Shown piece after piece: positions 27,801 to 62,358 of a stretch of DNA of 64,000 nt. Each line of letters begins with the position of its first letter. The stretch's first letter is position 1. The notes beneath the pieces are model-generated. The model saw only the letters and a list, made by a program, of their open reading frames with translations, was not told where the DNA came from and searched no databases. The position numbers and the translations under genes are program-made. The DNA comes from Patiria pectinifera (Eukaryota > Echinodermata > Asteroidea > Valvatida > Asterinidae), in contig CM057129.1 in the NCBI GenBank assembly GCA_029964075.1, positions 12,019,430 through 12,083,429 on the forward strand. The letters run 5' to 3'.

Positions 27801-30800
27801 TCCTTCTGCCACACCTTCCCATAGGCCTGACGCTAAGAGACGCCGCCGTGAAGCCCCGGATGACGCCCTTGCGGGTACCCCTCCTGCTGCAACGGTCTTG
27901 CCCGCTAGCGCACGGTTCAACAGCACCACCCCTAACCTCTTTGCCCCCATGGGGACCTCCCCGGCCCCTACCCATTTGCTCTTCAAGGAGCAGTTTGTGG
28001 CCAACACGACCGTTGCCCTGATAGACTTGGACCACTTCACGGAGTACGTGGTGGAGGTGCTGGCTTGCAACCGTGAAAAGTGCGGCCTCAAAATGGCCAC
28101 GTTTGGACGGACGCTACCCAAGCGTGAGTAAATTTTATAATTTTGTTTCGCCCCTCCCGAATTCTACAACCAGTGTTGTAGAAGTCTTGGCTCAAGACGC
28201 TAGTGATCGATAGTGGACGGTGCACAGTGTGCCCTCTAATGGCACAAAAATTAGACCAGCGGCCTACTCGCACTAATTTACCGAGCGACAGTAGTTATTA
28301 CCACATGGTGAGATTTGAAGGTTTCCATGGTGGAAAGATACTAAGACAAGATAAGTTTGCGGTAGCACCATGTGAATAAATCTCTTTTGTGAGTATGTGT
28401 GGCTCTGAAAAGAACCGAGCATGCTGTTCGAAACGTTGAGTCCCTCTGGTTCTTTTCAGAACCACACATACTCACAAAAGAGATTTATAAACATGGTACC
28501 ACGTACATGGTGTTACTGCAAACCAAAACAATATTGATACAATGATACCATACTGATACCGACACCGACATCATGATTAAGAGGGGCACTGTGACGCCTG
28601 CACTTGAGAGAGACAAAAATCCATCTTGTTTGAATTTCCTGCAGCTGATGCGGATGCCATCCCGCCCACTGTGATGGCCAACATAACCTCTAAGGACCCC
28701 CAGGACCGGCGGGTCAAGCTGAGCTGGGAGGAACCCCCGTCCCCCAACGGCATTATCATCCTCCACGAGATCGTCTACTACAAGATGGGCACCCAGGAGG
28801 CAGGGGAACCTCGGCCAGAGGAGAGAGAGGCTAATGGTGAGACCAACGGCGAGGGTAACGGTGAGAATCCCATCAGGCAAGAAGCAACACCAGCAACCGA
28901 GGTATGCGAACAAGTTTTTTTTGTCCTGTGCGGGCAGGGGGAACGTCTTTGAATAATTTCACACAAGTGTACATATTTTTTGTCTCCACAAATTTCCGAA
29001 TGGAATAATTTGTGTTCCTAAGGGAACCAATACATGTATGTGCGTGGCTGGTTTTAAACAAGTACATTTAAAAGCGGCTTATGGCCTGGATGCAGTTTGG
29101 GGACGAACCTTATCATCGACCAGGCCCCAAGCCGGTTTTAAACGTACTTGTTTAATACCGGCCAAGCTAATAGTTATTTCCATGCATAAATACCTTTCTG
29201 TCAAAAACCAGCAACCGAGGTACATGTATGTGAACAAGTTTTATTTGTCCTGTGCGGGCAGGGGGAACGTCTTTGAATAAATTTCACAAAGTGTACATTA
29301 TTTTTGTCTCCACAAATTTCCGAATGGAATAATTTGTGTTCCTAAGGGAACCAATACATGTATGTGCGTGGCCGGCTTTAAACAAGTACATTTAAAAGCG
29401 GCTTATGGCCTGGATGCAGTTTGGGGAGGGACGTTATCATCGACCAGGCCCCAAGCCGGTTTTAAACGTACTTGTTTAATACCGGCCAAGCACATAGTTA
29501 TTTCCATGCATAAATACCTTTCTGTCAAAAACCAGCAACCGAGGTATGCGAACAAGTTTTTTTTTGTCCTGTGCGGGCAGGGGGAACGTCTTTGAATAAA
29601 TTTCACAAAGTGTATATTATTTTTGTCTCCACAAATTTCCGAATGGAATAATTTGTGTTCCTAAGGGAACCAATACATGTATGTGCGTGGCCGGTTAAAC
29701 AAGTACATTTAAAAGCGGCTTATGGCCTGGATGCAGTTTGGGGAGGGACGTTATCATCGACCAGGCCCCAAGCCGGTTTTAAACGTACTTGTTTAACCGG
29801 CCACGCACATAGTTATTTCCTTGCATAAATACCTTTCTGTCAAAAACCAGCAACCGAGGTACGCGAACAAGTTTTTTTTTTGTCCCTGTGCGGGCCGGGG
29901 GAACGTCTTTGAATAAATTTCACAAAGTGTATATTATTTTTGTCTCCACAAATTTCCGAATGGAGTAATTCGTGTTCCTAAGGGAACCAATACATGTATG
30001 TGCGTGGCCGGTTGCTGGTTTTTGACAGAAAGGTATTTATGCATGGAAATAACTATGTGCTTGGCCGGTATTAAACAAGTACGTTTAACACCGGCTTGGG
30101 GCCTGGTCGATGATAAGGTCCCTCTCCAAACAGCATCCAGGCCATGAGCTGCTTTTAAATGGCCTGGATGCTGTTTGGGGAGGGACGTTATCATCGACCA
30201 GGCCCCAAGCCGGTTTTAAACGTACTTGTTTAATACTGGCCAAGCACATAGTTATTTCCATGCATAAATACCTTTCTGTCAAAAAGTCAAAACAAGTCAA
30301 AAATGATAAATTTCCAACGATTTTGTGCAACTATTTTACTTCGTGTTTAGTGAAACACCCCCTAGCTAGGGTACCGGTATGGTACCGATGTGGAGGTTGG
30401 TGCGTGTGGCAAAACTGCGCGATTTGACATAAAACGCGGCGGTGCGAGTGTCGTGTGAATTTTGGACTCTATGAAATTTAGGACAGACGCATTGGTAGTA
30501 GTGCGCATGCTTAAGTGAAGATCGTGAACGTTCAACCAATAAAAGGGTAAAAGAGACTAGATTTCCTGGGAGACCAAATTCATGTAACACTGGAAAAAAA
30601 TGTTTACATGTAAAACCAGTTGGTGTTTTATCAACCATTCAAAACCACCCACGTGACGGGCTCTCGACCAATAGCAATGGGTAAACTGTCTCGGGTATTT
30701 CCGAATATCAATTAATGCTATTCATTCTTTACTTCGTGATGTTTGTCCATGATACCAATTCCTTGGTTTTCCATTGACTAGAAAGTTAGGTTAGTGCACC

Positions 30801-45938: not shown

Positions 45939-46608
45939 TATGGAAGTGTAGATAGGACATGGTTAAAAATAAAACTAATTCGTACGTACGAATTACTAAA
46001 CCGTACGTACGAATTACTAATTCGTACGTACGAATTACTAAACCGTACGTACGAATTATTAATAAATCGCACGTACGAATTACTCAGTGGCGTAGCCACG
46101 GGAGGGCGTGGGGGCAGTGGCGTAGCCAGTAATTTTTCAGGGGGCGCTGAAGGGCTGGAACGCCACGCCACTGCGACAGCCCCCATGAAACCTTGTCGCC
46201 CCCATGCAAGTGCCCCACTGAGATTTTGAGTTTTAAAAAAATTATCATTGATCTACATAACGCCCCCAACCTGAAATGTTCCAGCCCCCCCCCACACACA
46301 CACACTGGAAAATTCCTGGCTACGCCACTGGAATTACTAAACCGTACGTACGAATTACTAAATCGTACGTACGAATTACTAAACCGTACGTACGAATTAC
46401 CAATTATTTCGTACGTACGATTTAGTAATTCGTACGTACGGTTTAGTAATTCGTACGTACGGTTTAGTAATTCGTACGTACGATTTAGTAATTCGTACGT
46501 ACGATTTAGTAATTCGTACGTACGATTTAGTAATTCGTACGTACGAATTAGTAATTCGTACGTACGAATTAGATTTATTTTTAACCATGTCCTATCTACA
46601 CTTCCATA
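45939..46608. repeat. Large inverted repeat of a 21-bp GTACGTACG array
   Basis: Outer arms TATGGAAGTGTAGATAGGAC (left) and GTCCTATCTACACTTCCATA (right) are perfect inverse copies. Inside are 21-bp units of the type CGTACGTACGAATTACTAAAC. Units point one way up to about 46400, then the reverse way from about 46411 to 46570. A hAT-like element (46085-46330) splits the left arm. Confidence 0.9.
46085..46330. mobile_element. hAT-like element (CAGTGGCGTAGCCA ends) inside the array
   Basis: CAGTGGCGTAGCCA at 46085, again at 46115, and TGGCTACGCCACTG ending at 46330 form terminal inverted repeats. GAATTACT flanks both sides (46077-46084 and 46331-46338), as expected for an 8-bp hAT duplication. The host array also contains this word, so the flank is supportive rather than proof. 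Confidence 0.8.
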
Positions 46609-47970: not shown

Positions 47971-48805
47971 ACTTATTTTTTTTTTTGGCCTTAGCCTTAC
48001 AATTTCGATCAAATTTGGCCAAAAAATGACTTTTCTCCAAAAAATTAGAAATGTCTTGGGATGCAAGAGGAGAATTAATCGACCTTCAAACACTGAACAT
48101 ATTGAAGATTTGGGCAAAAATCACCGACTTATTGAGACGAAAATGAATAATTTTTGCAAATTTTGACCCAAATTATCGACGCAATCTTACTTTAAAATGC
48201 CCAAACTTTCCAAAATTCCAGTTCGAATGTGCTCTTGGGTCCTTCAGGCATAATCCCTGCAACTTTCAAGCAATTTCATTTTTCGGCCAAAATTGAAAAA
48301 AAATGCAAGGGGTTAGCCTTACATTTTTGATCAAATTTGGCCAAAAAAATTACTTTTCTCCAAACAACTCAGAAATGTCTTGGAATGCAAGAGGAGCATC
48401 AATCGACCTTTTAACACTGAACATATTGAAGATTTAGGCAAAAATCACGGACTTATTGAGACAAAATGGAATAATTTTTGCTAATTTTGACCCAAATTAG
48501 CGACGCAATCTTTCTTTTAAATGCCCAAACTGTCCAAAATTCCAGCTCGAATGTGCTCTAGGGTTCTTCAGGCATATTCCCTGCAACTTTCAAGCCATTT
48601 CATTTTTCGGCCAAAATTGAAAAAAAATGCAAGGGGCTAGCCTTACATTTTTGATATATTTGGCCAAAAATTGTCTTTTCTTCAAACAACTTAGAAATGT
48701 CTTTGAATAAAAGAGGAACATTAGTCGACCTTCAAACACTAAACATATTGAAGATTTGGGCAAAAATCACCATTTTATTAAGACAAAAATGAAAAATGTT
48801 TTTGC

Positions 48806-49890
48806 ATTATTGCCCCTAGAGGTAAGAACCTCTAGGGGCAACCAGGCACTGTCACCACTAGAGGTAAAAACCGTCCAAAGTACCCCTAGGGGCGACCATG
48901 CACTGTCGCCCCTAGAGGTCAGAGCCTCTAGGGGCGACCAGGCACTGTCGCCCCTAGAGGTAAAACCCTCAAAAAGTACCCTTAGGGGCGACCATGCACT
49001 GTCGCCCCTAGAGGTAAGAGCCTCTAGGGGCGACCAGGCACTTCGCCCCTAGAGGTAAAAACCGTCAAAAGTACCCCTAGGGGCGACCATGCACTGTCGC
49101 CCCTAGAGTTTAGAAACTCTAGGGGCGACCAGGCACTGTCGCCCCTAGAGGTAAAAACCGTCAAAAGTACCCCTAGGGGCGACCATGCACTGTCGCCCCT
49201 AGAGGTAAGAGCCTCTAGGGGCGACCAGGCACTGTCGCCCCTGGAAGTAAAACCCTCAAAAAGTACCCCTAGGGGCGACAGTACCCTGTCGCCCCTAGAG
49301 GTAAGAGCCTCTAGGGGCGACCAGGCACTGTCGCCCCTAGAGGTAAAACCCTCAAAAAGTACCCCTAGGGGCGACCATGCACTGTCGCCCCTAGAGGTAA
49401 GAGCCTCTAGGGGCGACCAGGCACTGTCGCCCCTAGAGGTAAAAACCGTCCAAAGTACCCCAAGGGGCGACCATGCACTGTCGCCCCTAGAGGTCAGAGC
49501 CTCTAGGGGCGACCAGGCACTGTCGCCCCTAGAGGTAAAACCCTCAAAAAGTACCCCTAGGGGCGACCATGCACTGTCGCCCTTAGAGGTAAGAACCTCT
49601 AGAGGCGACCAGGCACTGTCGCCCCTAGAGGTAAAACCCTCAAAAAGTACCCCTAGGGGCGACCAGGCACTGTCGCCCCTAGAGGTAAAAACCGTCCAAA
49701 ACACCCCAAGGGGCGACCATGCACTGTCGCCCCTGGAGGTAAGAGCCTGTAGGGGCGACCAGGCACTGTCGCCCCTAGAGGTAAAACCCTCAAAAAGTAC
49801 CCCTAGGGGCGACAGTACCCTGTCGCCCCTAGAGGTAAGAACCTCTAGGGGCGACCATGCACTATCGCCCCTAGGGGTAGGTACCTCACT
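48806..49890. repeat. 96-bp hairpin-rich tandem array (GTCGCCCCTAGAGG)
   Basis: Alternating half-units share CACTGTCGCCCCTAGAGGTA and GGGGCGACCA. One half is closed by GAGCCTCTAGGGG and the other by CCTCAAAAAGTACCCCTAGG. Each dimer is 96 bp, and there are about 11. Each half-unit can fold on itself. Because 96 is a multiple of 3, an open frame of 307 codons exists on the - strand (49947-49024) with RGDSAWSPL repeats; I do not regard it as a gene. It is far richer in GC than its surroundings. Confidence 0.92.
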
Positions 49891-51984
49891 TATTAAGACA
49901 AAAATGAATAATTTTTTACTAATTTTGAACCAAATTATCGACGCCATCTTACTTTAAAATGCCCAAACTTTCCAAAATTCCGGCTCGAATGTGCTCAAAG
50001 GGTTCTTCACGCATATTCCCTGCAACTTTCAAACAATTTCATTTTTCGGCCAAAATTGAAAAAAAAATCAAGGGGTTAGCCTTACATTTTGGATCAAATT
50101 TGGCCAAAAAATGACTTTTCTCCAAACAACTCAGAAATGTCTTGGGATGCAAGAGGAGCATCAATCGACCTTCAAACACTGAACATATTGAAGATTTGGG
50201 CAAAAATCACCGACTTATTGAGACAAAAATGAATAATTTTTGCTAATTTTGACCCAAGTTATCGATGCAATATTTATTTTAAATGCCCAAACTGTACAAA
50301 ATTCCAGCTCGAATGTGCTCTAGGGTCCTTCACGCATATTCCCTGCAACTTTCAAGCAATTTCATTTTTCGGTCAAAAATTGAAAAAAATGCAAGGGGTA
50401 AGCCTTACATGTACATTTTTGATCAAATTTGCCTAAAATTGGACTTTTCTCCAAACAACTCAGAACTGTCTTGGGATGCAAGAGGAGCATCAATCGACCT
50501 TTAAAAAAATGAACATATTGAAGATTTTGGCAAAAATCACCGACTTATTGAGACAAAAATGAATACTTTTTGCTAATTTTGACCCAAATTATTGACACAA
50601 TCTTTCTATTAAATGCCCAAACTGCCCAAATTTCGGCTCGAATGTGCTCTAGGGTCCTTCACGCATATTCCCTGCAACTTTCAAGCAATTTCATTTTTCG
50701 GTCAAAAATTGAAAAAAATGCAAGGGGTAAGCCTTACATGTACATTTTTGATCAAATTTGCCTAAAATTGGACTTTTCTCCAAACAACTCAGAACTGTCT
50801 TGGGATGCAAGAGGAGCATCAATCGACCTTTAAAAAAATGAACATATTGAAGATTTTGGCAAAAATCACCGACTTGAGACAAAAATGAATAATTTTTGCT
50901 AATTTTGACCCAAATTATCGACGCAATCTTTCTTTTAAATGCCCAAACTGTCCAAATTTCGGCTCGAATGTGCTCTAGGGTCCCTCAGGCATATTCCCTG
51001 CAGCTTTCCAGCAATTTCATTTTTCGCCCAAAATTGAAAAAAACGCAAGGGGTTAGTTAGCCTTAACATTTTTGATCAAATTGTGCCAAAAAATTACCTT
51101 TCTCCAAACAACTCAGAAAAGTCTTTGAATGCAAGAGGAACGTCAATTGACCTTCAAACACTAAACATATTGAAGATTTTGGCAATAATCACGAACTTAT
51201 TGAGAAAAAAATGAAAAATGTACACTAATTTTGACCGAAATCTTCGGAGTACCTCTAGTAGCGGCCATGCACTATCGCCACTAGAGGTACGTACCCCTAG
51301 GGTCGACCATGTAATTTCGCCCCAGAGGTAAGTACCTCATTGATATTTGGAAAGACAACAAAAATATAACAACTTGACTGATTTTATCTTTTCGAAATCA
51401 CTTTTTCAATTTTATTTCAAACGGTATTCCTCACAGAAAATGCTTGAACATTATCTACAATTTCGATTGTCTTGAATTACCCTGCAATTCTAACAACATT
51501 AGCAGGCCCGATATTAACTTTTATGAGGGGAAGAATATCGCTCAGGAAATTTCATTAAACTTCGTGGGTGAAAAGGGACACTTCACATGGATTTGGATGA
51601 CACACAAGGCCACGGTAACAGCTAATTTACATATGCACAATGTGTACAAGCATTTGATGTTCATTTTATTTACATAAAAAAATGTTTTTATTTGTCCTTG
51701 AGTAAATAAATAACTTATTACTTACACATGCATGGCATTGAAATGAATGCAGCGTTTTTTTCTGTTGCTGAACTTCAAACATTAAAGAAAAAAATAGAAA
51801 AGAAAACATCACCACAAATGTGAATGACCTTTTAAATCATTTAGGGAGCACATAACTACATGTACAACACACTTGTTTACTATTGTTCTTTACAATGAAA
51901 AAAAGTAATGTTCTGTCAGCATTTTAGACATGAAATATTTTTGCCAGATATTTGAGACGGTGAGTCAAAAAACATGAAATCATG

Positions 51985-56700: not shown

Positions 56701-59700
56701 CTACCAAAAAAATTGGATCATACTATCAATCCACTAGGGACAGAAATGCTTAAATATGAACTCGCCTCCATTTGCCAACTGTGCTGGGGACTCAAATCTC
56801 CAATTTTCAAATGTCAATTTTTGTCAAGTGTGCTTTTCAAAAATTCTACTTGGTATCTATTATGAAAGACCAGTCATCAGTTGTTGTCAAGCAAACAAGA
56901 GGAAACCAACCAACCATGACATTGTCCATTTATTGGACTTTGACTAAAAATACCTATTTGTAAATCAACCACACGTAACAATTGTGAACAATCAGCTATA
57001 GGTGAACAATTGTTACGTGTGGTTGATTTACAAATTGGTATTTTTTTGGGACACCCTGTAAACGTGATGCTTTCTGTCAAAGCCAGACAATTCTTGAAAC
57101 AAGGATATATGACCAAAACAAAACGTGCGACAACATTTGTTTTGATCAAGCTTGCAATTCGGAATTTAGAAAAAAGGAGGAAATTCTAAACCACACAAGA
57201 CTTTGTACAGTGTTTTTGTAATGGCATTAATGAGAAGTAACAAACGAGGAAATCAGCGGAACCAAGGAAAAGTTGCTTGCCGGTTTGATATACAGATTTG
57301 CAAATTCATAATGCTAAATGTCTAAAATATATTTTACAAGTTTGAGATTGTATTTTTTTAATGATTTGTAAAGGTGTAACAATTCCAGAAATGCAAAACC
57401 CATGACAAGGTAAGTTTTTATTTAATTAATTGTAATTAAAGATACGTTGGAAGGAATACTTGCCTCATCTTGGAGATTGGCAAGCTCCTCAAGGACTTGA
57501 CCCAGTTTGTCCCGCTGTCTGGCCCGGTTGTGACCCTGTATCTGTACTATGGTGCACATGGGCTGTGAAGGATGTAAAATAAACAACACTTGAAGTTGAT
57601 GCTTGTAACATCTTGAGACTGATTTTTGTGATGGGTTGGCTTCGGTTGGGATGGGTAAAGTTGGTTAGGTTTGGATTAGGTAATAGGATCTGGATTGCAG
57701 AAATTCCAGTGGGTTTTTGCTCTAGGGCCTCAAAATTTTGACATGTGAAAGACAGCCAAATGCACAGTACACCATAAACACCTTGCAATATCACACATGC
57801 GTATGTGCCTACTTTTAACTTACAATTCATACATCCGTTTATCGAGCTAGCATGGCCATTGCTATCAGGCATTGCATGCAAAAAAAAAAATCTCTGTGCC
57901 TGCTACACAAGGATTTACTTTTCCAGCCTGTGAAGGGATGAAAAAGCCTGAGTTTGCTTTTCCAAACATGTAATGAAAAATCAGGAGTTCAGGCTATATA
58001 GCCTGAAATCTGGCATCCCTGAAATTGGGCTGGGTTGGGTTGGGTTGGGATGGGTTGGGTTAATGGGTTGGGATGGGTAAAGTTGGTTGGGTTGGTTTGG
58101 GTTAGGTTGGGTTGGGCTGCATTGGGTTGGTTTTGGATCACAATTGCGCTGGTTAGGGTTGGGTTAGATTTGGTAGAGTTGGGCTTGGTTGGGTTGGGTT
58201 GGGCTAGGTTGGGTAGAATTGGGGTAGGGTGGGTTGGGTTGGGTTGGGTTGGGTCGGAATGGGTTGAATTGGGCTGGGTTGGGTTGGGTTGGGTAGGATT
58301 GGGTTGGGTTGGGTTGGGTTGGGTTGGGTCGGATTGGGCTGGGTTGGGTTGGGTTGGGTCGGGTTGGGTTGGGTCGGGTTGGGTTGGGTCGGATTGAGTT
58401 GAATTGGGTTGGGTTGGGTTGGGTTGGGTTGGGTTGGGTAGAATTGGGTTTGGTTGGGTTGGGTCGGATTGAGTTGAATTGGGTTGGGTTGGGTCGGATT
58501 GGGCTGGGTTGGGGGTTGGGTTGGGTCGGATTGGGCTGGGTCGGGGGTTGGGTTGGGTCGGATTGGGTTGCATTGGGTTGGGTTGGGTTGGGTTGGGCTG
58601 GGATGCATGCTCTTGTGTCGATTGTTTTGGTCAAGTTTGGTAGGGTTGGTAGGCCTATTTTCAGAGCTTTAGGGAATAGATCCAAGAATGAAGCCTACCC
58701 TGACAGCATGTAGAAGCAGCGAATCCACCATCTCTTTGACTTGAGAGTTGTTGTAGATCGGGGACCTTGGCACAAGCGCCGGTGGGTACACAAAGGATCG
58801 GATGCAATCTCTCAGGGATTCCTGCACCAATTCCACGCCAAAGACCTTCTTGTTGTTGAACGGGAGAAAGAGGAGTTGCAGCACGGAGCGGGACAGTACA
58901 CAGGGACACTGCTTGCTGACCTCACCGGTGAAATCCTGTCATGCAATCAAACACCACATTTCACTCCCTCAAAATCCTTTAAAATCTCTTTGTTGATTTT
59001 GAATGGTTTAAGTTTGAACACACTCACACTCATTTCAGAGTAGAATTCTAAAAGTCCCGTTGAACAAATTTTGAATTAAGTTTGAGATTTTAAACAGTTA
59101 GGAACAGCGACACTCAAAAGTGTCAAGAGATTGAACATCTCAATAGCACTTCGTACAAAGGATAAAAATAGAAGCAAGTACCCGGATCTCAAACACGCAT
59201 GCTGTACGAACTTCTCGTGTGAAGATTACACGCACGCTTGCAACATGCGAATGAATCCGGCCAGATGTGCATGCATGCATGTGTGCGTGTGATTGTTTGA
59301 AAGTTTGACATCCGAGGTATGCGCACGTACGGCGCGGAGCAAAATGGACGTCATTAGTGCGGAGTGCTATTGTTCAGAATGACTCCAGAGTCTACTGGAT
59401 GGGTATTAACGAAATCTATTAATGCAGGTGAGGGGTCTTTTTTGGCTTACCATGATGGCATGGAAGGAGTTTAGATTGGTCACCTCACAGACTGTCCTTA
59501 ACCTCCCTACCAGACCCTCGAAGTATGTGACGGCTGCAGCACGGTCAATGATCTTGGAGTATCGAGGGAAGGTTGGTGGCAGAAGTCTCTGGTTGACCAG
59601 GGGCTCGAAGCCCATGATCAGAGGGAAATCTGGAATAATTGGGAGAGTCACTGGTTAACCAACGGCTCAAAGCCCATGATGAACGGGAAACCCAGGAATA

Positions 59701-62358
59701 ATTGGGGAGTCTGAGGCTGAGCAACGGCTCAAAGCCCATGATCAGCGGAAAATCGAGGAATAATTGGGAGAGTCACTGGTTACCCAACGGCTCAAAGCCC
59801 GTGATGAATGGGAAACCCAGGAATACTTGGGGAGTCGGAGGCTGAGTAACGGCTCGAAGCCCATGATCAGCGAGAAATCTAGGAATAATTGGGAGAGTCA
59901 CTGGTTAACCAACGGCTCAAAGCCCGTGATGAATTTGAAACCCAGGAATAATTGGGGAGTCTGAGGCTGAGCAACGACTCAAAGCCCATGATCAGCGGGA
60001 AATCTAGGAAAAATTGGGACAGTCACTGGTTAACCTACGGCTCAAAGCCCATGATGAATGGGAAACCCAGGAATAATTTGGGAGTCTCAGGCTGAGCAAC
60101 GGCTCAAAGCCTATGATCAGCGGGAAATCTGGGAATACTGACGAAGTCTCTGGTTAACCAGAGTAACTCATGTATCCGTATTTTCAACTGCTGTGGTCTT
60201 AGCGGTCTGTAGTTGGATACCTAGAGGGGTGGGCTTATAGATGACAGGGTACTGGGTTGATGGGGTAATTGGGTACAGGAGTGATGGGTACTGGGCTGCT
60301 TGGATAATGAATGGGTACCAGATTATAACTGTGTAACTGTTGATAGTTGGATGCCTAGATTGATGGATTTCTGGATGATTGGGTACTGGGTTAATGGAAT
60401 AATTGGGTACTGGGTTAATGGAATAATTGGGTACTGGGCTAATGAGTGGGTACAATATTCTACATGTGACTCTGTCCTTTCATCTGTACTGCTCTGAGCA
60501 GTCTCTGGTTGGATGCCTAGATGGATATATTCCTGGATGATTGGGGTACTGGGTTAATGGGGTACAGCATTGATGGATGTTGGGGTAGTAGGTTAATGAA
60601 TGTGTACAATATTCTACCTGTGACTCTATCGTTCCCATCTGTGTTGCTCTGAGCGGTCTCTGGTTGGATGCCTACATGTAGATGGATGGCTTTCTGGATG
60701 ATTGGGTACTGGGTTAATGGGCTAATTGGGTACCAGGGTAATTAATTGGTACAATATTCTGCCTGTGATTCTGTTCTTCCCATCTGTGTCCCTCTGAGCA
60801 GTCTCTGGTTGGATGCCTAGATGGATGGATTTCTTGATGATTGAGTGCTGGGTTGATCGTTCATGAATAGTTAGTTGGGTACTGGGTTGATGGGTTAATG
60901 GGATAATTGGGTACTGGGCTAATGAAAGGGTACAATGTTCTACCTGTGACTCTGTCCTTTCCATCCGAGTCACTCTGAGCGGTCTCTGGTTGAATGTCTA
61001 GATGGATGGATTTCTGGATGATTGGGTGCTGGGTTAATGGGGTAATTGGGTACTTAGGTAATTAATTGGTACAATATTCTACCTGTGACTCTGTCCTTTC
61101 CATCTGTGTCACTCTGAGCGGTCTCTGGTTGGATGTCTAGATGCATGGATGTCTGGATGATTGGGTACTGGGTTAATGGGGTAATTCGGTACCGGGGTAA
61201 TTAATTGGTACAATATTCTACCTGTGACTCTGTCTTTCCATCTGTGTCACTCTGAGCGGTCTCTGATTGGATGCCTAGATGGATGGATTTCTGGATGATT
61301 GGGTACTGGGTCGATCATGCATGATTAGTAAGTTGGGTACTGGGTTGATGGGTTAATGGGATAATTGGATACTGGGCTAATGGTGGGTACAATGTTCTAC
61401 CTGTGATTCTGTCCTTTCCATCTGTGTCACTCTGATCGGTCTCTGGTTGGATGCCTAGATGGATGGATTTCTTGATGATTGAGTGCTGGGTTGATCATTC
61501 ATGATTAGTTAGTTGGGTACTGGGTTGATGGGTTAATGGGATAATTGGGTACTGGGCTAATGAAAGGGTATGATGTTCTACCTGTGACTCTGTCCTTTCC
61601 ATCCGAGTCACTCTGAGCGGTCTCTGGTTGAATGTCTAGATGGATGGATTTCTGGATGATTGGGTGCTGGGTTTATGGGGTAATTGGGTACTTAGGTAAT
61701 TAATTGGTACAATATTCTACCTGTGACTCTGTCCTTTCCATCCGAGTCACTCTGAGCGGTCTCTGGTTGGATGTCTAGATGCATGGATTTCTGGATGATT
61801 GGGTACTGGGTTAATGGGGTAATTGGGTACCGGGGTAATTAATTGGTACAATATTCTACCTGTGACTCTGTCTTTCCACCTGTGTCACTCTGAGCGGTCT
61901 CTGATTGGATGCCTAGATGGATGGATTTCTGGATGATTGGGTACTGGGTCGATCATGCATGATTAGTAAGTTGGGTACTGGGTTGATGGGTTAATGGGAT
62001 AATTGGGTACTGGGCTAATGGTGGGTACAATGTTCTACCTGTGATTCTGTCCTTTCCATCTGTGTCACTCTGATCGGTCTCTGGTTGGATGCCTAGATGG
62101 ATAGATTTCTGGATGATTGGGTGCTGGGTTGATCATTCATGATTAGTTAGTTGGGTACTGGGTTGATGGGTTAATGGGATAGTTGGGTACTGGGCTAATG
62201 AGTAGGTACAATGTTCTACCTGTGACTCTGTCCTTTCCATCCGTGTCGCTCTGAGTGGTCTCTGGTTGGATGCCTAAATGGATGGATTTCTGGATGAGTG
62301 GAAGTAGATCGCCAGCCTGGATAAGAAGCTTCCGTGCTTCCTCCACTCCCTGCTTCAC
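53630..62358 (-). CDS. NAA35: NAA35 (Mak10), NatC auxiliary subunit gene, 3' part (8 exons)
   Basis: Exons in transcript order: 62358-62220, 59629-59451, 58935-58699, 57562-57464, 56558-56380, 55968-55761, 55152-54889, 53770-53630. They total 1446 nt (481 codons and stop), with all phases consistent. The product matches animal NAA35 over its C-terminal two thirds (about 725 aa in human). Recognised blocks include [49 protein letters not shown] with [15 protein letters not shown] and [18 protein letters not shown]35 scaffolds the NatC complex with NAA30 and NAA38, which acetylates N-termini such as Met-Leu and Met-Ile on cytosolic ribosomes. The 5' exons lie right of the window. One intron uses a GC donor and another is built from exon-derived repeats. 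Confidence 0.96.
53943..54233. mobile_element. Fold-back element with roughly 50-bp inverted ends
   Basis: Left TATCATTTCGGTTTGCGGTA then ACACCATGTGGTAATAAC; the right end is their near-perfect reverse complement (GTTATTACCACATGG...CGAAACGATA). The middle also contains paired AACTTGTC/GACAAGTT words. It is related to 28350-28545. Confidence 0.85.
54501..54578 (+). repeat. tRNA-like SINE head
   Basis: TTTGCTTAGTGGTTGAGTAG at the start and GATTCGAGTCCCACCCAAGC at the end resemble Pol III A and B boxes with a paired acceptor end. A T-rich tail follows. The anticodon arm is not clear, so it is probably SINE-derived. Confidence 0.5.
54889..55152 (-). CDS. NAA35: NAA35 exon: RFEHRFA block
   Basis: The acceptor is ttcgccacag and the donor GTAAAA. 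It encodes [20 protein letters not shown] then [20 protein letters not shown] and [13 protein letters not shown], matching FDMDGKVRKP.FELD.E.VRYEHRFAPFN.V.TPP and ILENIPN. It is GC-rich relative to the flanking introns. Confidence 0.96.
55290..55465 (-). repeat. tRNA-derived SINE fragment
   Basis: The - strand reads AGCGCTTGCTTCTCACCACT, then GGCCCAGGTTCGACTCGCGA (B box) and a body ending GCTCTCCAGTTTTCCTCCCT. This layout is well known from SINEs of marine invertebrates. It lies in the intron upstream of exon 55152-54889. The rest of that intron is unremarkable. Confidence 0.6.
55761..55968 (-). CDS. NAA35: NAA35 exon: basic linker region
   Basis: The acceptor is ccctcgcag and the donor GTAGCT. 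It completes the Trp of IYW and encodes [20 protein letters not shown] then a Lys/Arg-rich stretch ([20 protein letters not shown]) and [13 protein letters not shown]. The basic run followed by RP..RE matches the KKxKKKKKVRPLSRE segment of vertebrate NAA35. Confidence 0.95.
55969..56379. other. NAA35 intron, nothing recognised
   Basis: 411 bp with consensus borders. I saw no repeat or RNA feature. Confidence 0.6.
56380..56558 (-). CDS. NAA35: NAA35 exon: LSGFELELY...HEYHYIYW block
   Basis: The acceptor is tttttcctcag and the donor GTATGT. It encodes [20 protein letters not shown] then [20 protein letters not shown] and [20 protein letters not shown]. The last block is highly conserved in NAA35. 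A mariner-type MITE ends only 26-28 bp upstream of the acceptor. Confidence 0.97.
56588..57058. mobile_element. mariner-type MITE in an NAA35 intron
   Basis: CAGGCAGTCCCAAAAAAAT at 56588 and ATTTTTTTGGGACACCCTG ending at 57058 form inverted ends with TA on both sides (56586-56587, 57059-57060). Its right half has a strong internal palindrome (arms near 56945-56985 and 57005-57047 with AAATCAACCACACGTAACAA). No transposase was seen. Confidence 0.82.
57061..57463. other. Rest of NAA35 intron, nothing recognised
   Basis: AT-rich sequence between the MITE and the GC donor of exon 57562-57464. No further repeats were seen. Confidence 0.6.
57464..57562 (-). CDS. NAA35: NAA35 exon: [12 protein letters not shown] block, GC donor
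   Basis: The acceptor is tccttcacag. The exon ends GATGAG and is followed by GCAAGT, a consensus GC-type donor rather than GT. It is 99 nt, phase 0 at both ends. It encodes [20 protein letters not shown] then [12 protein letters not shown], continuing into AEKVDA of the next exon exactly as in the family (LQDEAEKVDA). Confidence 0.95.
58020..58605 (+). repeat. (GGGTT)n pentanucleotide array
   Basis: Nearly 600 bp of GGGTT units with scattered changes (GGGTC, GGGCT, GAATT), mostly in the + orientation, so the NAA35 transcript carries (AACCC)n. It lies just downstream of the donor of exon 58935-58699. A looser version occurs at 57630-57680. The open frames here (Pro/Asn/Thr/Gln or Gly/Trp/Val repeats) are artefacts. 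Confidence 0.92.
58699..58935 (-). CDS. NAA35: NAA35 exon: NNKKVFG block
   Basis: The acceptor is gcatgacag and the donor GTAGGC. Both ends are phase 0 (237 nt). It encodes [20 protein letters not shown] then [20 protein letters not shown] and [19 protein letters not shown], matching family text SPCVLSRSLLQ....DNKKVFG and SFV.PP.L.P..YLYNN.Q. Confidence 0.96.
58936..59450. other. NAA35 intron, nothing recognised
   Basis: 515 bp with consensus borders. A GCATGCATGCATGTGTGCG stretch lies near 59269. No other feature was seen. Confidence 0.6.
59451..59629 (-). CDS. NAA35: NAA35 exon: [19 protein letters not shown] block
   Basis: The acceptor is attattccag and the donor GTAAGC. It encodes [20 protein letters not shown] then [10 protein letters not shown] and [14 protein letters not shown]. 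The first block is one of the most conserved strings in NAA35 proteins. The exon's 5' end and acceptor are the seed of the 125-bp array upstream. Confidence 0.97.
59630..60165. repeat. 125-bp array derived from the acceptor end of NAA35 exon 59451-59629
   Basis: CCCATGATCAG, part of the exon at 59611, recurs at 59735, 59860, 59985 and 60110 (spacing 124-125). Each unit has two related 62-bp halves ending ACGGCTCAAAG. Read on the - strand the copies repeat the exon start (GATTTCCC...ATCATGGGCTTTGAGCC) together with its AATTATTCC-AG acceptor. Three of the four full copies keep an AG at the acceptor position. Confidence 0.93.
60166..62219. repeat. 139/180-bp array derived from the donor end of NAA35 exon 62220-62358
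   Basis: GTCTCTGGTTGGATG words from the exon recur at about 60501, 60656, 60801, 60982, 61121, 61259, 61439, 61620, 61759, 61898 and 62078, with the real exon at 62257. Spacings of 138-139 and 179-181 alternate as a higher-order unit of about 638 bp. Each copy carries the last 70 nt of the exon and most keep the ACAG/GTAGAA donor. Degenerate copies continue left to about 60166. Confidence 0.93.
62220..62358 (-). CDS. NAA35: NAA35 exon (first in window)
   Basis: On the - strand the acceptor is gtcttgcag and the donor GTAGAA. It opens in phase 0 and ends in phase 1. It encodes [20 protein letters not shown] and then [20 protein letters not shown], matching the family segment EAQKLM.QAADLL..I..S...GIQ. 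The last 70 nt plus the donor are copied about 11 times in the following intron. Confidence 0.92.

Follow-up and report, generated by a model that had tools for sequence, protein, structure and literature searches.

The 64,000-nt stretch of the Patiria pectinifera genome analysed here (the window) contains an insulin/IGF receptor gene on its plus strand, identified by its match to human INSR (E 2.4e-155), and on its minus strand NAA35, which encodes the auxiliary subunit of the NatC acetyltransferase. The joined translation of two NAA35 exons, E1 and E2, matched human NAA35 with E 6.6e-29 (phmmer), and when the further NAA35 exons of the window were included the match reached E 1.4e-152; a Pfam search of the 106-residue E1-E2 stretch alone returned no family. 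The intron that separates these exons (59630-62219) begins at CACAG/GTAGAA and ends at TTCCAG/ATTTCC (slashes mark the exon borders). In this assembly, it is composed almost wholly of tandem copies of its own two exon borders and their flanks, as an earlier note on this DNA had claimed: non-self copies make up 2576 of its 2590 nt (99.5%), and the two arrays, said to meet near 60165, do so across the 14 bases without a copy at 60161-60174 (Table 1). No match linking the donor-side array to the acceptor-side array was found at E 1e-5. The end of E1 (62258-62268) and the start of E2 (59585-59595) have the 11-mer CAACCAGAGAC in common, on the minus strand and in different reading frames; an 11-base match between them arose in 0 of 2000 single-base shuffles, and we have no explanation for it.

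Table 1. Features of the NAA35 intron and its flanking exons (window positions).
Feature	Position	Strand	Remarks
NAA35 exon E1	62220..62358	-	139 nt; last ~78-82 nt (62220-62301) served as template for the donor-side array
NAA35 exon E2	59451..59629	-	179 nt; first 46 nt (59584-59629) served as template for the acceptor-side array
Real donor GT	62218..62219	-	CAG/GTAGAA
Real acceptor AG	59630..59631	-	TTCCAG/A
Donor-side array	60175..62219	-	11 clear copies of E1 end and donor, then degenerate remains to ~60190
First 638-bp block of higher-order repeat	61582..62219	-	181+179+139+139 spacings
Second 638-bp block of higher-order repeat	60944..61581	-	Spacings; identity to first block
Acceptor-side array	59630..60160	-	8 copies of acceptor and E2 start, 62/63-nt spacing
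Copy-free remainder of intron	60161..60174	-	Sole 14 intron bases outside non-self copies

Structure of the two arrays

Alignment showed that the repeats do match the exon ends. A 72-nt query spanning the donor border recovered all 11 donor-side copies at 86-92% identity over 69-72 nt (E down to 2e-24), plus a 27-nt remnant, and the corresponding acceptor-border query reached 6 of the 8 acceptor-side copies at 78-84%. The donor-side array presents 12 donor sites, the real one and the copies at 62038, 61859, 61720, 61581, 61400, 61221, 61082, 60943, 60762, 60617, and 60463, with successive spacings of 181, 179, 139, 139, 181, 179, 139, 139, 181, 145, and 154 nt. Each unit combines intron sequence and the donor with ~78 nt of E1, and the copied part of that exon reaches up to 82 of its 139 nt. 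The earlier note had described a plain 139/180-bp array of the last 70 nt of the exon and its donor. The array and its unit lengths stand, but the copied exon part is ~78-82 nt rather than 70, and the units are organised into a higher-order repeat with a degenerate distal end. Spacings of 181, 179, 139, and 139 nt sum to 638 bp, which is also the strongest autocorrelation, and the two successive 638-bp blocks are identical at 622 of 638 positions.

Likeness among the copies follows these blocks. Border windows of block partners are 97.5-98.3% alike, whereas most copies outside such partnerships differ by 8-26%; the real exon copy is 76-91% identical to the others in the same windows. Compared with E1, the exon part of the eight proximal copies is 91-92% identical, that of the next three 88.5, 88.5, and 85.7%, and the most distal remains (~60190-60290) match at 75% over 48 nt. 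Since likeness to E1 falls with distance from it, the oldest donor-side copies probably lie deep in the intron.

On the acceptor side there are nine acceptor sites, one real and eight copied, occurring every 62/63 nt (two weak, out-of-register sites at 59960 and 59710 were left out of this list), and the copies take in 46 of the 179 nt of E2. Two types of copy alternate. Type A has AG at 60128, 60003, and 59878 and lacks it at 59753, while all four copies of type B (60066, 59941, 59816, and 59691) read GG. The 125-bp array of the 5' end and acceptor of exon 59451-59629 reported previously is therefore present, its period being that of a dimer of 62/63-bp units.

Border copies elsewhere in the window and genome

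As a control, copies within 4 kb (E 0.001) were sought for 34 exon borders of the window, 15 from NAA35 and 19 from the insulin/IGF receptor gene, all positioned by hand and accurate to a few bases. Only the E1 donor, the E2 acceptor, and one receptor donor (28901) had any, and at the latter the two copies contain no more of the exon than its final 13-16 nt. An array of 3.5 units of 324 bp occupies 28889-30013 at this donor, each unit starting with the final 13 exon nucleotides and the donor, and by eye an apparent inverted copy follows at ~30000-30290. Other repeats in the window include a long (TTGGG)n array, now degenerate, in a different NAA35 intron (58025-58602), within a region of strong G over C skew (~58000-62000); a compound block at 47991-51241, in which 324- and 329-bp arrays flank a 96-bp array with abundant GGGGCGAC/GTCGCCCC motifs; and two arrays whose related 21-bp units contain the palindrome CGTACG (45974-46084 and 46331-46572). 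When the two border queries were run against the 613.5-Mb genome, they returned 12 and 4 matches, all at the NAA35 locus among the best candidates scored, and one copy of this locus was found in the assembly. Dispersed related copies, by which an introner or transposon-derived intron would be recognised, were likewise absent from the rest of the genome among the best candidates.

To place NAA35 among other genes, we sampled exon cores from myosin and kinesin motors (59 of 75 myosin matches and 41 of 130 kinesin matches). Core ends in this sample are the ends of profile matches rather than mapped splice sites, some matches extend into the intron, and positions in the myosin set carry a one-base offset. 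A uniform test was then applied to 90 loci, one core each, paralogous loci (L030/L032/L034 and L035/L036) included. Border-spanning copies were present at 5 of the 90, four downstream (L020, L021, L053, and L104) and one upstream (L069). A kinesin donor, L104 (650-785), carries an exact 67-bp duplication (2.0 copies, 100% identical), apparently a new-born border array. At the myosin locus L053 (1166-1689), a 131-bp unit that includes the donor and roughly the final 30 nt of the exon is repeated 4.0 times at 88%. L021 has one extra copy at 78%, while L020 (donor) and L069 (acceptor) retain degenerate multi-copy remains that the tandem-repeat finder mostly missed.

The idea that exon borders are preferred seeding points was rejected for now, as the 4 downstream borders spanned compare with 5.7 expected from random intronic points among the 90 (P 0.66). 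Among 30 myosin loci, 7 cores were touched by repeats against 4.8 expected. Upstream borders were spanned less often than random points (1 versus 5.7; P 0.047). The same asymmetry appeared in tandem-copy coverage, which over the first 40 nt from the cores was 10.5% downstream versus 1.1% upstream and became equal by 300-450 nt. For spanning cases only, the difference between the two sides was not significant (P 0.38). Arrays starting within 40 nt of the core end were found downstream of eight further cores and upstream of none, so that spanning and adjoining arrays together number 12 downstream versus 1 upstream of 100 cores (P 0.003), or 9 versus 1 with paralogs merged (P 0.02). In the paralogous myosin exons L035 and L036, the same array begins a few bases past the donor (from 1685 and 1676), with copies 132 nt apart that are 93-94% alike. 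Our reading is that tandem duplications of short length form throughout, and that those spanning a donor are kept like any others. The scarcity upstream could, at a guess, reflect selection against duplicated acceptors, perhaps in that each decoy acceptor sits upstream of the real one; it may also have a mutational cause.

Kinesin matches such as C20:16928170 and C20:16454535 form near-equal pairs on one contig and opposite strands, which suggests that the assembly holds retained haplotype copies or inverted duplications. Such retention of paired copies would be in keeping with the NAA35 intron being an assembly artefact, its copy number inflated or its haplotypes stacked at a short duplication, and so would a difference of only 2.5% between the 638-bp blocks. 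Against it stand the 8-26% divergence of most other copies in their border windows and the independent border copies, of unrelated sequence, at other exons. We consider an artefact very unlikely.

Source of the copies and their decoy splice sites

The earlier note had raised the alternative that a pre-existing minisatellite captured both exon ends, the repeats coming first and their exonic use later. The tail of E1 would allow this in part, since it is to some extent lineage-specific, with two short insertions (3 and 4 residues) relative to human NAA35. Nevertheless, human NAA35 can be aligned with the greater part of the copied exon sequence, and closely with the start of E2, and the units occur nowhere else among the best genome candidates. 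Exon-specific changes also speak against capture. E1 differs from all 11 donor-side copies at two fixed positions (one synonymous, one not), and E2 differs at four positions, all synonymous, from the copies where types A and B agree. The changes separating exons from copies as groups are thus synonymous in 5 of 6 cases, against an expectation of ~22% for the E1 tail (P near 0.003, a hand calculation on small numbers with transitions uncorrected).

Simpler comparisons also take in changes of the copies themselves and lean less clearly to one side. The donor-side majority, built from 7 of the 11 copies (4 are out of register through indels), differs from E1 by three synonymous and two other changes; type A differs from E2 by five synonymous and four other changes, and type B by eight and two. 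Among donor-side variants relative to the exon, 9 of 27 are synonymous (8 of 25 once the two fixed differences are set aside). Divergence among copies is 9.4% in the exon-derived part, 16.6% in the adjoining intron-derived part, and 4.0% in the donor 9-mer, and the lower value of the exon-derived part, which runs counter to a simple picture of source and copies, might point either to constraint on the exon part or to exchange with it. Given the alignment of the copied parts to human NAA35 and the preponderance of synonymous exon-specific changes, the exon has the appearance of a source under constraint and the arrays that of copies free to vary; capture of the exon ends by a minisatellite is accordingly very improbable.

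The copies have kept their splice sites to different degrees. GT is present in 10 of 11 donor copies, 9 of which retain the exact 9-mer of the real donor, while AG is present in 3 of 8 acceptor copies. The difference in loss (5 of 8 versus 1 of 11) gave a Fisher P of 0.04, with the four AG losses of type B probably representing one event. Using a matrix trained on the 18 other acceptors of the window, the decoys at 60003, 59878, and 60128 scored 5.6, 3.8, and 1.7, and the real acceptor, which is weak, scored 3.7, below 17 of the 18 training acceptors. Motif strength is therefore unable to single out the right sites. Among the 48 pairs of donors with AG-bearing acceptors, the frame is open in the real-real junction only, and retention of the intron brings a stop after 71 codons. 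Considering this open frame, and the regular splicing reported for the lancelet cases (PMC3087553, PMC3902484), it is most likely that the original, exon-adjacent donor and acceptor still join E1 to E2. Since every decoy use or intron retention brings a stop codon, we infer that mis-spliced messages would be lost to decay.

Elsewhere in the sample, decoys (alignments judged by eye) retain AG in 3 of 3 copies at L069 and GT in 1 of 3 at L053, 2 of 3 at L020, and in the single decoy of each of L021 and L104. Silencing of decoy acceptors as a general rule, which NAA35 had suggested, finds no support at L069, L053, and L020.

The stop that follows every decoy use, the exact donor 9-mer in 9 of 11 decoys, and the low divergence of that 9-mer could together be taken for a regulatory device, with decoy arrays held under selection to tune productive splicing through poison splicing and decay; but stops are expected by chance in intronic sequence anyway, a short motif and recent copying may explain the low divergence, 5 of the 8 decoy acceptors are dead, and copies span downstream borders at no higher a rate than random points, all of which leaves such a device with very little probability.

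Growth of the intron and related systems

We regard it as probable, judging from the pattern of copies, that the NAA35 intron is a two-sided minisatellite of the mirage type, grown from tandem duplications across both of its borders. Two short tandem duplications would have started it, one across the E1 donor border and one across the E2 acceptor border, and the array founded by each would then have expanded by unequal exchange or replication slippage. On the acceptor side, a 62-bp unit would have given rise to the 125-bp dimer; on the donor side, 139/180-bp units would have been assembled into the 638-bp block, and the block itself duplicated. The arrays would finally have replaced the intron's own sequence, with the exon-adjacent sites remaining in use. 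Growth by slippage or unequal exchange at the borders, already proposed in the earlier note, is well supported, since the 638-bp higher-order repeat, the degenerate distal copies, and the exact duplication at the kinesin donor all point to repeated tandem duplication or unequal exchange. The architecture had also been called unusual. This holds for two sides within one intron and nothing between them, but one-sided border arrays are known in lancelets and spanning copies occur at 5 of 90 loci here. The two-sided, whole-intron form is rare but needs no new mechanism.

A broader reading is that border-crossing tandem duplications are a common and continuing form of intron growth in this genome, tolerated on the downstream side of exons and largely purged on the upstream side, with NAA35 as an end state in which both borders have overwritten the intron. 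We advance this only tentatively, as somewhat less probable than its negation, our confidence having been lowered by the decoy sites at L069, L053, and L020, which depart from the NAA35 pattern. If it is true, stages ranging from a recent, still exact duplication to an intron rebuilt throughout would stand side by side in one genome, which could be used to test intron growth and the tolerance of decoy splice sites. This one genome offers a natural series of intron-growth stages, and it raises a testable question: are tandem copies scarce upstream because duplicated acceptors, and not duplicated donors, disturb splicing?

Several known systems resemble the NAA35 intron in part. In the Rogers model, introns are reportedly gained by tandem genomic duplication, the potato RdRp gene (PMC4974935) being a case in point. 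As in that model, tandem duplication at splice-site sequences drives the NAA35 arrays; unlike it, what the arrays show is growth of an intron rather than a new intron position. Introners and transposon-derived introns likewise consist of repeated sequence, but in NAA35 the repeated sequence was copied locally from the neighbouring exons and was not found elsewhere among the best genome candidates.

The closest parallel is provided by the mirages of lancelets, tandem duplications of exon-intron boundaries described in Adh3, TnC, the globins BflGb6 and BflGb9, and PGBD5 (PMC3087553, PMC3902484). According to the portions of these two papers available to us, many but not all mirage copies retain AG or GT, clusters undergo concerted evolution from which the boundary copies are excluded, and RT-PCR showed regular splicing to be undisturbed; either border can be duplicated, haplotypes vary in length, and the globin arrays are one-sided, while PGBD5 has 60- and 108-bp repeats at its 5' and 3' splice sites (PMC3087553, PMC3902484). 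Set against these accounts, the NAA35 units similarly hold an exon end, a splice site, and adjoining intron, and their copies keep GT (10 of 11) and AG (3 of 8) in part. Concerted evolution again leaves out the exon copy, although likeness in NAA35 follows the 638-bp blocks and not neighbouring units. Either border is also affected in this genome, both in the one NAA35 intron and elsewhere four downstream and one upstream among 90 loci. What differs from the lancelet mirages as described there is the echinoderm host, the involvement of both borders of one intron, the 99.5% of the intron made up of copies, and the 638-bp higher-order repeat. The genome itself points to an echinoderm through one bindin match (E 1e-33), whose frame reads without stops as a bindin core similar to that of sea urchins; bindin is not known outside echinoderms. 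Bindin of sea stars is the subject of PMC4063459. A lancelet origin, which the mirages might suggest, was rejected: besides the bindin match, queries with the GFP family and the fluorescent protein mNeonGreen returned nothing, although these two negatives carry little weight. A COX1 query likewise had no match.

A literature search for exon-border arrays under the name mirage, covering mostly papers free of subscription and possibly missing arrays described under other names, yielded lancelets only. As far as the literature was searched, the kind is thus known from lancelets, and the two-sided, whole-intron form and the phylum are new. The NAA35 intron extends the mirage phenomenon from lancelets to an echinoderm, in an extreme form.
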